Of a stretch of DNA of 20,159 nt, positions 575-14,995 are shown one piece after another (position 1 is the stretch's first letter; every line of letters starts with the position of its first letter). The notes under the pieces are model-generated. The model had not been told where the DNA came from. It saw only the letters and a list, made by a program, of their open reading frames with translations, and did no database searches. The DNA is taken from IMG/VR virus record IMGVR_UViG_3300021964_000739, positions 1 through 20,159 of that record; one strand, 5' to 3'. Source of the DNA: a virus. Both the position numbers and the translations under genes were made by a program.

Positions 575-1006
575 ATGCAACCATTAGATAAAAATACTTT
601 ATTTTCAATCTTCGAACAAGGAGATGAAGAAATCTATAGAGAATACGGTATGGAAGGTCAGCTCGACAATCCTTTCGTTCTTCTAGGTATGGTTATAAGA
701 GGCTTAGAGAACTACCAACTAATGGATATGATGTATATGAAGAGATATCCTAAACACTACAAAGAGGTTCGAAACATTACAAAGTATAAGTACTATAATA
801 AATTATACAGGTACCTCAATAGGATTGATAGTAAAGAGTTCAGCAACGTATATAAGATAGGAGAGTCTTTCGATATGGTAAAGGTAATGTCTAGTCTAGA
901 AGATATGCTAAGGTTCTATGAAGGAATAGAACACTATGAGAAATGTGCTGTTATAAAGAGATATCAAGATTTAGTTAGTAATAAAGACGTAGATATAGTT
1001 GCTTAA
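575..1006 (+). CDS. Conserved-type phage protein with C-terminal UVR-like motif (143 aa)
   Basis: A small, probably cytoplasmic helical protein rich in Tyr, Lys and Glu. Residues 107-134 (SSLEDMLRFYEG then EHYEKCAVIKRYQDLV) have the spacing of the UVR motif of UvrB/UvrC, in which a helical hairpin with a YEKAA..RD core mediates protein-protein contact. The motif is seen by eye only and departs from consensus (C124 and Y130 at usual Ala and Asp positions). The middle segment (KYYNKLYRYLNRIDSKEF) is basic and helical. My recollection is that similar small proteins occur in T4-like phages, but I know of no function. The TAA at 1004-1006 directly abuts the TTGACA of the promoter proposed for the next gene, so this gene probably closes the upstream transcription unit or is read through. 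Confidence 0.72.
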   Translation: MQPLDKNTLFSIFEQGDEEIYREYGMEGQLDNPFVLLGMVIRGLENYQLMDMMYMKRYPKHYKEVRNITKYKYYNKLYRYLNRIDSKEFSNVYKIGESFDMVKVMSSLEDMLRFYEGIEHYEKCAVIKRYQDLVSNKDVDIVA

Positions 1007-1037
1007 TTGACAAAGATTTCTTATATTTAAGTATAAA
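1007..1037 (+). promoter_or_regulatory. Putative host-type (sigma-70-like) promoter of accessory cassette
   Basis: A perfect TTGACA (1007-1012) starts immediately after the previous stop codon, and TATAAA lies at 1032-1037 with 19-base spacing, slightly longer than the ideal 17. A TATATTTA (1022-1029) also resembles the Bacteroidota TAnnTTTG element, but its spacing to TTG is wrong for that class. An AAAGG at 1040-1044 gives the downstream gene a plausible ribosome binding site 5 bases before its ATG. The window has no other clean TTGACA-type promoter that I saw. Confidence 0.42.
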
Positions 1038-1049
1038 ATAAAGGTTATA

Positions 1050-1550
1050 ATGGCAATTAAAAGAATTACGAAAGAAGAGGCTGAAGCCTTAATCAAAGTC
1101 TCTGAGGATCAGACAGGCTCGCCTGCTGTCTACTTTACATTAACTCCAGATGCCGAGCAAGGCGATGGTTGGGATAAAGTAACATACTACACTAATAGAC
1201 CTAAGAAGATCCAGATACCACAAGGCATGACTGGCTGTCAATGGGTATATGTACTTACTAACCCTACAATGCCTGGTCTATGTAAGATAGGCTTTACTAA
1301 GAATAAACCCTCGGAGAGAGTCAAGCAGATTAATGCAGCTACTGGTGTAGCATTAGACTTCGTGGTAGAGTGGGCTTACCCTTGCTTTAATGCACATGAT
1401 GTAGAGCAGCAAGTACACCACTACTTAGAGGATAATGGCTTGAGGGTTAATAAATCTAAAGAGTTTTTTAATGTAACTGTTGACGAAGCTAAGGCTGTAG
1501 TACAACGTATTGGTGAACCTTATAAAATGCAAGATAATGAAATCATTTAA
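1050..1550 (+). CDS. T5orf172/MUG113 (GIY-YIG-like) domain protein (166 aa)
   Basis: Residues 64-150 fit the T5orf172/MUG113 family, a branch of the GIY-YIG nuclease fold. VYVLTNPTMPGLCKIGFT (66-83) corresponds to the GIY...YIG strands. ERVKQINAATGV (89-100) supplies the conserved Arg (R90) and the Thr-Gly of the family. VEQQVHHYL (118-126) carries the helix Glu/His, and KEFFNV (137-142) is the usual terminal motif. The first 60 residues are a separate N-terminal part I do not recognise. Family members are predicted DNA endonucleases, often found in phages beside KilA-N or Bro domains; here the domain is alone. Base composition is visibly more GC-rich than the genes on either side, which suggests separate acquisition. 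The 3' end overlaps the lipoprotein gene by 14 bases, implying co-transcription. Nuclease activity is inferred from the family and not shown here. Confidence 0.82.
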   Translation: MAIKRITKEEAEALIKVSEDQTGSPAVYFTLTPDAEQGDGWDKVTYYTNRPKKIQIPQGMTGCQWVYVLTNPTMPGLCKIGFTKNKPSERVKQINAATGVALDFVVEWAYPCFNAHDVEQQVHHYLEDNGLRVNKSKEFFNVTVDEAKAVVQRIGEPYKMQDNEII

Positions 1551-2238
1551 AAGAGATACGAGAGCTAAACTATCTCACAATCCTACTGGAGAATTATTTA
1601 AAATATTACTTCGTAGATTAAGAATAAAAATCGCGTGGCAACTTCGCGCGTTTCGCGCGGCGGCGTGCTTGTTAATATTATCATTAGCATCCTGCACCCA
1701 AGAACCGCTCTCCCCCGACACCTGCCCCGGCGGATGTGAAGCTGTTCAATTATGGAACTATCAAAAAGATGCAAGCGGTATATACCATATACCTTTAGAT
1801 TGGACAGGAGAGTACTTACCTTATTTTTTTATCGATATTGAAGTAAGCGAAACCGATCCTTGGTGGCAATATAATGGCGAGTCTGTTGTAGAAGCAAGAT
1901 TTGATAGCAATACAAGTTGGACTATAGGAGATAACCTAGTTATATCTCAATCTTATTACACACCATTCGGTAATTATACCTCTACCGGCTTACCTTTACC
2001 GGCAGGATGGACAGATGTTAATTTAACTCAATATGAAGGAGAAAAGATCAATATTGCACAACCTACAGGTTTGCGATTTAGTAAAAAAGGTACTAAATTA
2101 AAGTCTAGAAGGTACTTAGGACCATTTATTCCAGAAATGATTGGGGATACTATTACGGTTTATATGAGGGTTTTTTGGGATGCAGGTGATCATTCCGTAC
2201 TAAAAGACCATTACGAGCAAAAATTTATTGTAGAATAG
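1537..2238 (+). CDS. Putative secreted lipoprotein, accessory/moron candidate (233 aa)
   Basis: Starting from the ATG at 1537, the protein has an unusually long basic n-region (about 40 residues with a dozen Arg/Lys), a hydrophobic core AAACLLILSL, and a lipobox LASC at residues 50-53, so Cys53 would be acylated after signal peptidase II cleavage. Thr follows the Cys, so there is no Asp inner-membrane retention signal. A CPGGC pair follows at about residues 62-66. The mature part (about 180 aa) is rich in Tyr, Trp, Gly and Thr, looks mainly beta-stranded, and matches no family I recognise. Codons 32-67 are sharply GC-rich (CGC, GCG, CCC), while the rest uses the AT-rich codons of the phage. 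An in-frame TTG lies at 1510 but runs deep into the previous gene, so the ATG is preferred. A terminator-like hairpin follows directly. Surface or periplasmic location is well supported; a role in exclusion of other phages is speculation. Confidence 0.72.
   Translation: MKSFKRDTRAKLSHNPTGELFKILLRRLRIKIAWQLRAFRAAACLLILSLASCTQEPLSPDTCPGGCEAVQLWNYQKDASGIYHIPLDWTGEYLPYFFIDIEVSETDPWWQYNGESVVEARFDSNTSWTIGDNLVISQSYYTPFGNYTSTGLPLPAGWTDVNLTQYEGEKINIAQPTGLRFSKKGTKLKSRRYLGPFIPEMIGDTITVYMRVFWDAGDHSVLKDHYEQKFIVE
1645..1659 (+). repeat. Perfect GC hairpin CGCGCG-TTT-CGCGCG inside lipoprotein signal-peptide codons
   Basis: Bases 1645-1650 and 1654-1659 are both CGCGCG (self-complementary) separated by TTT, giving a 6-bp all-GC stem at codons 37-41 (Arg-Ala-Phe-Arg-Ala). 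TTCGCGCG also occurs twice as a direct repeat with 9-base period (1643 and 1652). In AT-rich phage DNA this is a strong outlier. It could pause ribosomes or mark a junction. Confidence 0.7.
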
Positions 2239-2240
2239 TT

Positions 2241-2259
2241 GATCTTTCGAGATTTTTTT
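2241..2259 (+). terminator. Short UUCG-loop hairpin followed by T7, candidate intrinsic terminator
   Basis: Three bases after the lipoprotein stop, ATCT and AGAT flank a TTCG tetraloop, with a G-T wobble extending the stem to 5 bp, and the stem runs straight into seven T residues (2253-2259). The stem is short, but the UUCG loop is unusually stable and position and T-run fit a rho-independent terminator closing the 1007-2259 cassette. Confidence 0.5.
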
Positions 2260-2331
2260 AATATCTTAAATAATATATAAAATATATAGATATTCTTAAT
2301 AAGAAATAATATAATAAAGTATATATAATTA

Positions 2332-2364
2332 TATAAATATATATAGTATATAATAATATAAATA
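2332..2364 (+). promoter_or_regulatory. Two T4 late-promoter-like TATAAATA boxes in 150-base AT spacer
   Basis: The gap 2239-2388 is almost pure A/T after the terminator and holds no ORF. It contains two exact copies of TATAAATA, the T4 late-promoter core recognised by gp55, at 2332-2339 and 2357-2364. Transcription from the second would start near 2370, giving a leader of roughly 20 bases before the ATG at 2389. A gp55-like factor is encoded about 1 kb downstream. Extreme AT content raises the chance rate, so the match is suggestive only. Confidence 0.45.
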
Positions 2365-2388
2365 ATAATTAAAACTAATAGGTTACGT

Positions 2389-3120
2389 ATGTTAGAAGCA
2401 GAGAAAATAGAGAAAAACTACCAAAAACATCTTAAAATCATCGACACCTACATAGGGGACCGTAAGGAGGCCTGTATTTCAATGATTAAACACATGGAGG
2501 AGACTTATATTATGGCTCCTGCTAGTAGTAAGACTTGGTATCATAGTGCTTTTCCCGGTGGATACGTTGATCATGTTAATAGAGTAGTGGAATATGCGGT
2601 AAAGCAGTCAAGGTTATATCAAGAGATGGGTGGAACAATCGATTACACCGATGAAGAACTAGTCTTTGCCGCACTTTTCCATGACTTAGGTAAGATGGGT
2701 GACGGAGAAAGACCTAACTATATACCTCAGACTGATAAATGGCGTCAAGATAAGCTATCAGAGATGTATACTTACAATCCTGATCTTGATTTTATGCTTA
2801 TCCCAGACCGCTCACTGTTTATTTTACAGAAATTCGGTATAAAAGTTAGTCAAAAAGAGTTTCTTGGTATAAGATTACACGATGGAGTGTTTGATAAAGC
2901 TAATGAAGCGTACTTTTTTAGTAATGTTGAGTCGTCTAGACAGAAAACCTCTATCGTTTCAGTACTTCACAGTGCAGACTTTCTAGCTTCTAAGGTAGAA
3001 TACGATATGTGGAAAAATAATAATGGTTCTTCAGAGCCAAAAGTGGTCAAAACCCCCGCCTCTAACGGCAGAAGGGTGAATTCTTCAGAAGGTCTTACTA
3101 ATATGTTAAAAAATCTATAA
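2389..3120 (+). CDS. HD-domain phosphohydrolase (243 aa)
   Basis: The HD metal-binding signature is visible in order: GGYVDHVNRVVEYA with His62, LFHDLGKMG with His98-Asp99 and Lys102, an LHDG with His164, and LHSADFLASK with Asp197. This H...HD...H...D pattern is that of metal-dependent HD phosphohydrolases and phosphodiesterases acting on nucleotides, cyclic nucleotides or RNA ends. The SAFPGGYVDH stretch recalls the HD domain of YhaM-type 3'-5' exoribonucleases, but no OB-fold is attached. The first 45 residues form a helical lead-in and the last 35 are polar and probably disordered. The substrate cannot be read from sequence. It heads a unit of three adjoining genes ending with the late sigma factor, only 3 bases separating it from the next ORF, behind two late-promoter-like boxes. 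Confidence 0.88.
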   Translation: MLEAEKIEKNYQKHLKIIDTYIGDRKEACISMIKHMEETYIMAPASSKTWYHSAFPGGYVDHVNRVVEYAVKQSRLYQEMGGTIDYTDEELVFAALFHDLGKMGDGERPNYIPQTDKWRQDKLSEMYTYNPDLDFMLIPDRSLFILQKFGIKVSQKEFLGIRLHDGVFDKANEAYFFSNVESSRQKTSIVSVLHSADFLASKVEYDMWKNNNGSSEPKVVKTPASNGRRVNSSEGLTNMLKNL

Positions 3121-3123
3121 AAA

Positions 3124-3417
3124 ATGTTGTTTACTATAATTATTTTATCTATCTTTACTGTTATATTGGGTGTTGCAATACGCAATCTACTGTTAAAAAA
3201 TGAAAGATATGAAGATATTACAGTAGCCCAGCAAGGTTACCTGTTGAGAATCTCAGAGTTAATAAAGGATTCTAAAATGCACCTACAAAAGCTTGATGAT
3301 AAAGGGGTCTTTCAAAGCGATGATGAGGTCGGTTATTTTTTTGAACAAATGAAAAAAGTACAAGAAGAGCTTGACCGATACACGCTCCAAGAAGATTATG
3401 CCCAGAAAAAAAAGTAA
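3124..3417 (+). CDS. Small membrane-anchored phage protein with coiled-coil tail (97 aa)
   Basis: Residues 1-24 are a hydrophobic helix (MLFTIIILSIFTVILGVAI), probably an N-terminal membrane anchor. The remainder is charged and helical: an ERYED segment at 27-31, then ISELIKDSKMHLQKLDDKG (43-61), an SDDEVGYFFEQMKK acidic-aromatic stretch (65-78) and a coiled-coil-prone end. It has no signal-peptidase site, so the soluble part probably faces the cytoplasm. From memory, T4-like phages of aquatic bacteria carry similar small proteins near gene 55, with no assigned function. The gene overlaps the sigma factor gene by 20 bases, which suggests translational coupling. Confidence 0.78.
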   Translation: MLFTIIILSIFTVILGVAIRNLLLKNERYEDITVAQQGYLLRISELIKDSKMHLQKLDDKGVFQSDDEVGYFFEQMKKVQEELDRYTLQEDYAQKKK

Positions 3418-4105
3418 AGCTAACTACTTCACAAAAGAGACAGAAGAGTATATAGTCAAGTATAATAATTCTACAGATCAAGAGTATAGAAATAAAATAT
3501 TCACTGATCATATTTACCTGCCTTTTTATAAGTTATCCGAAAACATTATACACACATTTAAGTTCTATTATACAGATGTTGATAAGATTGAGGACTTAAA
3601 ACACGAGATCGTTTCTATTTTACTAGAAGAAAAGATTATGAAGTTTGATCCTACTAATGGAGCAAAAGCATATTCTTATTTCGGTACTATTGTAAAGCGA
3701 TGGTTAATTAATTATAACAATAAAAACTATAAAAAGTTAAAGCAGATAGGAAGCTTTGACGATATAGAAGATGGTTATGAGGATGGAAGCGTTTATGCCG
3801 AACCGAATAAAGGTATAACACTCTCAGACTTTGTTGATAAGTGGGTCGATACTATGTACGACGAACTAGATGAGCTTTTTATTAAAGAATCAGAGCAGCA
3901 AATTGCAGATGCAGTACTTACATTATTTAGAACAAGAAATGATTTAGATATATTTAAGAAGAAAGCTTTATATATTTATATACGAGAGATTACTGACTGC
4001 GACACTCCAACACTAACAAAAGTCATAAATGTTCTTAAAATTGACTTTAATCAAAAATACTTAGCGTTACACGAACAAGGGTTGATTTCAAATAAGATAA
4101 GGTAA
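3398..4105 (+). CDS. gp55: Late-transcription RNA polymerase sigma factor, T4 gp55-like (235 aa)
   Basis: A divergent sigma-70 region 2 lies at about residues 30-115: YRNKIFTDHIYLPFYKLSENI, then DLKHEIVSILLEEKIMKFDP and AYSYFGTIVKRWLINYNNKNYKK. The last motif is characteristic of gp55-like factors of T4-type phages. These replace the host sigma factor on the core polymerase and direct it to TATAAATA late promoters. Regions 3 and 4 of housekeeping sigma factors are absent, as in gp55. T4 gp55 is 185 aa, so this protein is longer, with an extra helical C-terminal part (about 145-235). It ends GLISNKIR and I see no hydrophobic-acidic clamp-binding tail of the T4 kind. I chose the ATG at 3398 (MPRKKSK) over an in-frame TTG at 3371, because the basic start is typical and reduces overlap with the previous gene. 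Confidence 0.85.
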   Translation: MPRKKSKANYFTKETEEYIVKYNNSTDQEYRNKIFTDHIYLPFYKLSENIIHTFKFYYTDVDKIEDLKHEIVSILLEEKIMKFDPTNGAKAYSYFGTIVKRWLINYNNKNYKKLKQIGSFDDIEDGYEDGSVYAEPNKGITLSDFVDKWVDTMYDELDELFIKESEQQIADAVLTLFRTRNDLDIFKKKALYIYIREITDCDTPTLTKVINVLKIDFNQKYLALHEQGLISNKIR

Positions 4106-14007: not shown

Positions 14008-14970
14008 ATGAATCTAGAAGAGTTTATTAATACTGACCCCAATCAATACGGTAGAGGAAACGCCAATATATTCTACAGCTCCAGTCTCTCTGGGTCTGAT
14101 GAGGTACCGGTTGCTCCTTTTACCATATTAGGAATGTCAGTACCCCTTACAGATTTAAATGGGAACAATTTAGTATCCCCGTTAAAAGAGGTAGATAAAT
14201 TTAAATTTGATTTTGGCGGACAGAGAGTAGAAGCAACTATAACAGGTAGACAAAAGAAGAATACATATTTCTTTTTCTCATTTGATCCTATAATAGTTAA
14301 TGGAATACCGGAAGAAGAACAGGGCGTTAGAGTAGAAGAAGATTCAGAATTTGTTTTCTTTCCGTATTTCGAGAGTAGTTACTTCAATAGCGACTACAAC
14401 CCCTTCCAGGGATCTGCACAGACATTATTATTAAATTCGGTAGTACAGGTGGTAGATAGATCTACATCACAAGCTCAACCTACTAACTTAGATGCTTTAT
14501 TATCTCAAACTGCTCAAAGAGCACAAATGCCGGACAGTTCATATGAAACAGCTGGACTGATTTCCGGTAAGTACCTAGGTGCAAAACTAACAAATGCTAC
14601 TACGAACTTTAACGTTTCTAAAGAAGCATTAACAAGACACGTATTACAATATGGAATATCTGGCTCAGAACCTGCCTTAAGCTTTAAATTATTTGATGGT
14701 AGTATTCACTCATCAGATGCAGATACTAATACCATTAAAGGTCTATCTGACTCGGATAGAACTAAAATAGAAGTGTATTTTAACTCATACAGACAACTAA
14801 GCGGGAGTCTTTTAACATTTCCTAACTTCCCTCTAACAGGTAATATTTTATATGTAGGAGTAGAAGGATCTAAAGATCTTAGAAAAGCTGTAGATGCTAA
14901 AGTATATTCTATTGAGAAAAACAGAGTATATATTACAGATGAGGACGGTATTGTGACTTCATTTGCTTAA
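14008..14970 (+). CDS. Unrecognised virion structural protein (320 aa)
   Basis: I recognise no named family. The first 25 residues (FINTDPNQYGRGNANIFYSS) are polar. Residues 30-130 look beta-rich (VAPFTILGMSVPLTDLNGN, KFDFGGQRVEATITGRQKK, NTYFFFSFDPIIV). Residues 150-210 are helical and Ala/Gln-rich, including NLDALLSQTAQRAQMPDSSY. The end is again beta-like (NILYVGVEGSKDLRKAVDAK). It has no signal peptide. The start follows the gpI/gp7-like gene as TAATAATG, and a gap with a TATTTATA box comes after, so it closes the long wedge run. Position suggests a baseplate or short fibre component. Confidence 0.72.
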   Translation: MNLEEFINTDPNQYGRGNANIFYSSSLSGSDEVPVAPFTILGMSVPLTDLNGNNLVSPLKEVDKFKFDFGGQRVEATITGRQKKNTYFFFSFDPIIVNGIPEEEQGVRVEEDSEFVFFPYFESSYFNSDYNPFQGSAQTLLLNSVVQVVDRSTSQAQPTNLDALLSQTAQRAQMPDSSYETAGLISGKYLGAKLTNATTNFNVSKEALTRHVLQYGISGSEPALSFKLFDGSIHSSDADTNTIKGLSDSDRTKIEVYFNSYRQLSGSLLTFPNFPLTGNILYVGVEGSKDLRKAVDAKVYSIEKNRVYITDEDGIVTSFA

Positions 14971-14987
14971 TAAACTAAATTAACATA

Positions 14988-14995
14988 TATTTATA
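14988..14995 (+). promoter_or_regulatory. TATTTATA box in the 44-base gap before gene 15015
   Basis: The gap 14971-15014 is AT-rich and contains ATATATTTATATAAAAC. The octamer matches those at 4108 and 6934. With a 19-base distance to the ATG, this is the copy best placed to be a promoter element; TATAAA at 14992-14997 overlaps it. No hairpin terminator is visible in this gap. Confidence 0.33.

Follow-up and report, generated by a model that had tools for sequence, protein, structure and literature searches.

Genes of the T5orf172 family have been described as putative homing genes located at genetic-exchange boundaries (Barth et al. 2023, PMC10448857), and one T5orf172 protein, Gp88 of ICP1, cuts PLE origins (PMC8263062). 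In Capnocytophaga (C. canimorsus), a K-(D/E)2 motif or similar after the lipobox cysteine acts as a lipoprotein export signal (PMC5080379), and the Bacteroidetes sigma consensus reads TTTG/TANNTTTG (PMC6847099). All of these bear on a locus found in the window, i.e. the whole 20,159-nt IMG/VR virus record IMGVR_UViG_3300021964_000739, where a T5orf172 nuclease gene and a lipoprotein gene lie ahead of a T4-like structural module. An initial annotation of this DNA had read positions 1007-2259 as a moron made of these two genes. We consider it fairly probable that the locus is instead a gene-exchange slot, with a promoter and a conserved 50-nt element (hereafter EL) as its edges, a homing-type nuclease gene as its occupant and a separate, near-core lipoprotein gene.

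The slot is framed by two conserved genes: on the left U2 (575-1006, plus strand), an ORF of no family, and on the right a gene encoding an HD phosphohydrolase (2389-3120, plus strand), at which the structural module starts, gp25 (PF04965) and further baseplate-type genes following 3' of it. The HD protein matches PF01966 below the cut-off (E 0.001) and PHROG 5889 with an E of 2.4e-17; by this protein, the closest cultured relative is the Flavobacterium phage immuto (59% identity). Another ORF (3401-4105), always found 3' of HD in relatives, has a weak late-sigma-factor-like match (PHROG 234, E 0.59; Pfam Sigma70_r2, E 0.058). Relatives were collected from IMG/VR with four queries (nuclease, lipoprotein, HD and U2), yielding a survey set of 92 distinct related loci, each with both flanks U2 and HD; because the HD and U2 samples consisted of the best 80 matches each, the locus frequencies given here describe nearer relatives. 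Both flanks are conserved throughout this set and the gene content between them varies: the lipoprotein ORF is present in 84 loci, the nuclease ORF in 58, both in 51 and neither in 1, the lipoprotein standing without the nuclease in 33/92 loci and the nuclease without the lipoprotein in 7/92. No empty site was found between U2 and HD among the 92 loci, since the distance from flank to flank never falls below 515 nt. These counts support an accessory status for the nuclease gene, while the lipoprotein gene is a separate, near-core gene. Judging by sequence reading, SGNH-hydrolase-like and 2OG-oxygenase-like proteins are among the other occupants of the slot, together with many small unknowns. 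In one relative (L004:2190-3380), a radical-SAM-like gene, recognised by eye from its CNLACQMC motif, lies between U2 and a near-identical counterpart of the promoter seen in the window. Where all five genes are present (21 loci), the protein distances for the slot and its flanks gave a nuclease-lipoprotein correlation of 0.49 and values of -0.004 to 0.40 for the other pairs; these values are modest and, coming from 21 loci, not conclusive as to the co-inheritance of the genes.

At the left edge of the slot, motif scanning and conservation point to a Bacteroidetes-type promoter (999-1028, plus strand) made of TTG at 999-1001, a 20-nt spacer and TATATTT at 1022-1028. Its TTG overlaps the end of U2, and the motif is conserved upstream of different first genes in relatives; a conserved leader ahead of the start codon, AATAAAGGTTAT (1037-1048, plus strand), likewise precedes the first gene of the slot in divergent relatives. 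Across 76 nonredundant loci, the pattern TTG-Nx-TATMTTW has 120 matches at x=20 and 0-10 at most other spacers, the outliers being x=12 and x=31, with 29 matches each, and x=30, with 17. The same 20-nt spacing gives 44 matches vs 5-13 for other spacers in a 168-kb relative, and 56 vs 2-14 in immuto. The pattern appears as a genome-wide class of approximately 40-56 copies per phage genome, often with AATAAAGGTTATG ahead of the start codon, and is also seen in the window at 14963-14992 and at 3127-3156, the latter within a small ORF (3124-3417). Because it is close to the Bacteroidetes sigma consensus, TTG-N20-TATMTTW can be read as a host-type promoter with A for the last G. Comparison of the relatives thus places the left edge of the slot where U2 ends, at what would be an ordinary host-type promoter.

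The promoter claimed initially was a different one, namely TTGACA (1007-1012), which does begin on the base right after the stop codon (1004-1006), followed after a 19-nt spacer by TATAAA (1032-1037). These letters are as described, and the idea that a promoter precedes the nuclease gene survives in the predicted 999-1028 motif, albeit as a member of a genome-wide class. The hexamers themselves do not survive: alignment upstream of the nuclease gene in relatives reveals a conserved TTCTTATATTTAAGTATA...AATAAAGGTTATG within which TTGACA is not conserved, TTGACA has 7 plus-strand copies in the window, and the 19-nt spacer falls outside the scanned range of 16-18. The proposed terminator had to be abandoned altogether. 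Its TTCG-loop hairpin (2241-2254) and run of seven T (2253-2259) are correctly located, but the hairpin folds at -1.5 kcal/mol vs a shuffle mean of -1.85 (z +0.26), no better than shuffles, and the whole of it (2241-2259) lies inside the spacer of a predicted promoter of the HD gene (2239-2268, plus strand), found in the window by motif scan with TTG at 2239-2241, a 20-nt spacer and TATCTTA at 2262-2268. This second promoter sits directly 3' of the lipoprotein stop codon, and the same motif is found there in many relatives. TTG-N20-TATMTTW thus provides a usable promoter rule for such phage genomes, with the caution that an E. coli-style TTGACA/TATAAT reading misleads in Bacteroidetes phages.

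The right edge of the slot is EL, a 50-nt GC-rich palindromic element (TCGCGTGGCAACTTCGCGCGTTTCGCGCGGCGGC; 1627-1676, plus strand) identified by a covariance model and a blind scan. In the window EL lies in signal-peptide coding sequence and at the lipoprotein start reads AAAATCGCGTGGCAACTTCGCGCGTTTCGCGCGGCGGC, in a phage of approximately 35% GC. The covariance model, R1, was built from 46 diverse EL copies, some of them from the 92 survey loci, and scores the window copy at 66.8 bits (E 8.5e-16). With this model EL is found in 85/92 loci, which had been gathered irrespective of EL, always on the plus strand and once per locus, and is missing from 7/92; it also occurs once in each of the two near-complete genomes that were read. 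A pattern search found it once in 13 of 16 larger records and in none of the other 3. A blind 16-mer scan of 2.9 million IMG/VR contigs led to the same place: all the AT-rich loci fetched (74/74) contained EL at the same locus, each adjoining an HD, lipoprotein, U2 or nuclease gene, and the matches in GC-rich contigs were isolated and unextended. Among copies that are no more than 70% alike over 236 nt, the pairwise identity of the EL core is 0.98 vs 0.29-0.32 in the flanks, a core value that is partly forced by the search pattern, which is not so for the model R1 survey. Taken together, locus comparisons show EL in the position of the right edge of the putative exchange slot.

EL could not be assigned to any known class. 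It has no credible match in Rfam 15 (window 900-2500), and the candidate of a known structured RNA was dropped for that reason; no copy was found in cultured phages, either by blastn of a phage collection or by the model in immuto, and the sequence was not found in the literature. It is not a host genome repeat either, as the exact pattern has 2 matches in approximately 85,000 genomes of bacteria and archaea, each within a GC-rich contig and probably due to chance. Nor is EL tied to the nuclease: it is also found beside F2, F6, F8, F16 and U2, and because it stands beside these other genes without a nuclease, the nuclease is not needed for its presence. In immuto, a short GC-rich stretch, ATCTTGCGCGGCGATTCTTCG (L303:7815-7870), lies between the T5orf172 and lipoprotein genes at the EL position; it is possibly an EL remnant, the EL model having no match there. 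The phages with EL also carry a second GC-rich hairpin family, E2, with the layout GGGGGCGTTTCTCTCTC-stem-GAA-stem-GCCACGCGC and 1-3 copies per genome, the stem varying with compensating changes (CACC/GGTG, CGACC/GGTCG, CCCC/GGGG). E2 sites (L218:76, L190:2526, G001:C1 near 42368 and NC_055915.1:42434-42490) are located within small ORFs and in gaps and, in immuto, directly 3' of the gp196 stop codon.

The nuclease gene (1050-1550, plus strand) encodes a protein that scores 68 bits against PF10544 (curated cut-off 20, E 1e-18), and Y67, K79-I80-G81, R90, E119, H123 and E138 are invariant in 24 aligned homologues. The protein is thus predicted to be a T5orf172/GIY-YIG nuclease with catalytic-type residues kept, in agreement with the initial assignment. 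No DNA-binding domain was recognised in Pfam beside the nuclease domain; the N-terminal 60 residues are conserved among homologues. The dN/dS values of 0.07-0.3 indicate purifying selection, and premature stops are seen in 2/55 nuclease genes and 0/86 HD genes, so heavy decay of the nuclease gene is not observed. The protein also matches two PADLOC defence-candidate models, PDC-S57 (E 1e-25) and PD-Lambda-1 (E 1e-8). The insertion itself may be read from pairs of loci. When loci in which F2 is directly followed by EL (L109, L125 and L193) are set against loci in which the nuclease gene stands between F2 and EL (L142-L144 and L070), homology extends as far as the end of F2 and picks up again at EL or within approximately 30 nt upstream of it. 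Similarly, L161, which carries another gene, and L190, L183 and L172 are homologous up to a point just past the promoter and again from EL onwards, the genes in between being different. These alignments show, at a resolution of approximately 30 nt, that the nuclease gene has been inserted adjacent to EL, and the enzyme is most likely a free-standing endonuclease of the homing type.

Could the nuclease serve as a weapon against other phages or satellites, not as a selfish homing gene, and cut competitors at a site that is altered in its own genome? There is a precedent in Gp88 of ICP1 (PMC8263062), the protein matches defence-candidate families, and strong purifying selection with few broken copies suggests a useful function. 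While this is conceivable, we regard it as rather unlikely: insertion beside a conserved site is the classic homing pattern, and EL, the obvious candidate site, is intact in nuclease carriers, so that no self-protection is visible.

The role of EL is best approached from its coding state. EL is coding in 56 copies, mostly as the start of the lipoprotein signal peptide, and noncoding in 29; near-identical bases are read as different peptides (QLRAFRAAA, LARVCAAG, LALFCAAA), and EL keeps the codons CGC (1.4% of Arg) and GCG (3.4% of Ala), which are rare in the codon usage of a relative. Because of these noncoding copies, variant peptides and rare codons, protein constraint alone cannot explain EL. 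The comparison shows that EL is conserved across coding and noncoding states, and its function would most likely be exerted at the nucleic-acid level. EL starts between -3 and +13 nt relative to the end of the stop codon that precedes it in 62/85 loci, irrespective of which gene lies upstream (the nuclease in 53 loci, U2 in 12, F2 in 10, and others). Noncoding copies are followed by a second small hairpin (z -1.28) and a T-run (T 0.70-0.85), and in 13 of 27 distinct noncoding copies the next promoter is found 59-90 nt downstream of the point where EL begins, a context resembling the close of a transcription unit. The second hairpin of the coding copies is weak (tail z -0.26), which counts against a plain terminator. 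Since the EL stem hardly varies, covariation neither supports nor refutes its pairing, and the hairpin cannot be proven in this way. It is tempting to speculate, though only tentatively, that EL is a new kind of phage signal, single-copy, locus-fixed and near-invariant, acting at the nucleic-acid level (i.e. in termination, processing, recombination or nuclease docking), serving as a fixed slot edge and tolerated in signal-peptide coding sequence, and that E2 is its relative.

Two other readings of EL were weighed. It is possible, if doubtful, that EL is a recombination anchor, i.e. a short shared stretch used by the phage's own recombination to swap slot genes and lipoprotein heads with no dedicated factor. 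Homology between slot variants does break and resume at EL, and slot and flank protein distances are weakly correlated, as in mosaic genomes; however, the flank genes already offer longer homology, and an anchor alone leaves the one-strand conservation, the T-run and the stop-codon placement unexplained. We find it very improbable that EL is conserved mainly as protein, namely as a signal-peptide start, QLRAFRAAA, common to the lipoproteins, and has no role of its own as nucleic acid: of the 56 coding copies, most do read as an Arg/Ala-rich signal-peptide start in the lipoprotein ORF, but the 29 noncoding copies with the same core refute this as the sole explanation, LARVCAAG and LALFCAAA are made from nearly the same bases, and the very rare CGC and GCG codons are kept.

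The lipoprotein gene (1537-2238, plus strand) overlaps the nuclease ORF by 14 nt (1537-1550), as initially annotated, and the lipoprotein call itself is confirmed by a signal peptide and a lipobox, LASC, with its Cys53 (1693-1695) after a hydrophobic stretch. C53 is invariant in 43 homologues, to which a C-terminal beta domain is also common. The AlphaFold2 model (pLDDT 91.8) is that of an Ig-like beta-sandwich; by sequence, no credible family match was found in Pfam, PHROG or PDB, and the fold search returned generic Ig-like sandwich matches alone (Z up to 8.9). Among 42 homologues, the residues after the cysteine are enriched in K at +3 (45%) and in D/E at +4 (76%) and +5 (43%). The family thus resembles the C. 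canimorsus export signal, the window copy, CTQEP, being a weak match, and from this export-signal-like N-terminus the lipoprotein is probably displayed on the host surface, where it might plausibly serve in superinfection exclusion or envelope remodelling. An unusually long N-terminal extension ahead of the signal peptide (MKSFKRDTRAKLSHNPTGEL..., 1537-1626) is conserved in L002, L004, L008, L021, L027 and L139 and missing from most homologues.

The composition of the two genes had been thought to differ from that of the flanking phage genes. This is not the case at third codon positions, the GC3 being 0.35 for the nuclease and 0.29 for the lipoprotein vs 0.34 for each of U2 and HD. The nuclease gene has the highest GC of the window (0.40), the lipoprotein gene is at 0.355 beyond position 1740, and much of the local GC peak comes from EL (1627-1676), with a conserved CPGGC-coding stretch just after it. 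Synteny in relatives without a composition shift, which the initial annotation had named as evidence against its own reading, is found for the lipoprotein gene and not for the nuclease gene. Its remark that the pairing of the two genes was not a recognised system stands, as the pair is absent from the family libraries searched. The two genes are found together in 51/92 loci, and in the same order in immuto, and independently elsewhere. Least probable of all is that they form a discrete moron of two genes, equipped with a promoter and a terminator of its own, gained and lost as a unit and acting on the host or on rival phages: a promoter is present, the 14-nt ORF overlap spacing recurs in many of the loci where both genes occur (51) and the nuclease has its PDC-S57 and PD-Lambda-1 matches, but the two genes occur independently in syntenic relatives (33 and 7 loci), no allele is empty, there is no terminator, the promoter is of a genome-wide class and the GC3 is like that of the neighbours.

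We propose that the gene-exchange slot would border the structural module of a T4-like flavophage on its left side, and that the gene between the U2-end promoter and EL would be swapped among relatives. The occupant in the window would be a T5orf172 GIY-YIG nuclease gene copying itself next to EL. EL itself would most likely function as nucleic acid, signalling at the 3' end of the unit upstream of it, either as a terminator-like or as a processing hairpin, over which the start of the lipoprotein may often have slid. Because EL is near-invariant and asymmetric, we infer that it may be recognised by a specific factor, possibly the nuclease. Expression and activity of the slot genes are predicted from sequence. 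Several points count against the slot and homing view, among them that (i), premature stops, a sign of homing genes, are few (2/55), (ii), Pfam shows no DNA-binding domain beside that of the nuclease, (iii), EL occurs without the nuclease and (iv), 7/92 loci are without EL. In place of the two-gene moron there would thus be, in a widespread group of marine T4-like flavobacterial phages, a gene-exchange slot with edges that are recognisable in the sequence. EL now provides a concrete 50-nt target to understand how phage gene slots stay open, be it through nuclease reading, transcript ending or recombination.

The locus shares features with several described systems and matches none of them entirely. 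Like the putative T5orf172 homing genes of ICP1 and other phages (PMC10448857), the nuclease gene has GIY-YIG-type residues, is variably present among relatives and adjoins conserved structural-module genes at an exchange boundary; unlike them, it encodes a small protein without recognised DNA-binding repeats, has few broken copies and abuts the conserved 50-nt EL, homing being a prediction here. It has the T5orf172 nuclease domain in common with Gp88 of ICP1 (PMC8263062), which differs in having a RepA_N-like DNA-binding domain, whereas none is recognised in the window nuclease. Flavobacterium phage vB_FspM_immuto (Immutovirus) has a similar arrangement, with T5orf172 gp123, lipoprotein gp122, small ORF gp121 and HD gp120, then the baseplate, and uses the same promoter class, TTG-N20-TATMTTW, but the two slot proteins are at 28-29% identity and its genome is without EL. 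The lipoprotein family resembles Bacteroidetes surface lipoproteins (PMC5080379) in its lipobox Cys followed by K or polar and acidic residues at +3 to +5; here, however, the protein is phage-encoded, has an Ig-like fold and no sequence family, and the CTQEP of the window is a weak match. Finally, EL is reminiscent of bacterial REP and other short palindromic repeats (PMC3733652), being likewise short, palindromic, GC-rich and close to the ends of genes. Whereas REPs are extragenic and occur in multiple copies, EL is single-copy, locus-fixed and often coding.
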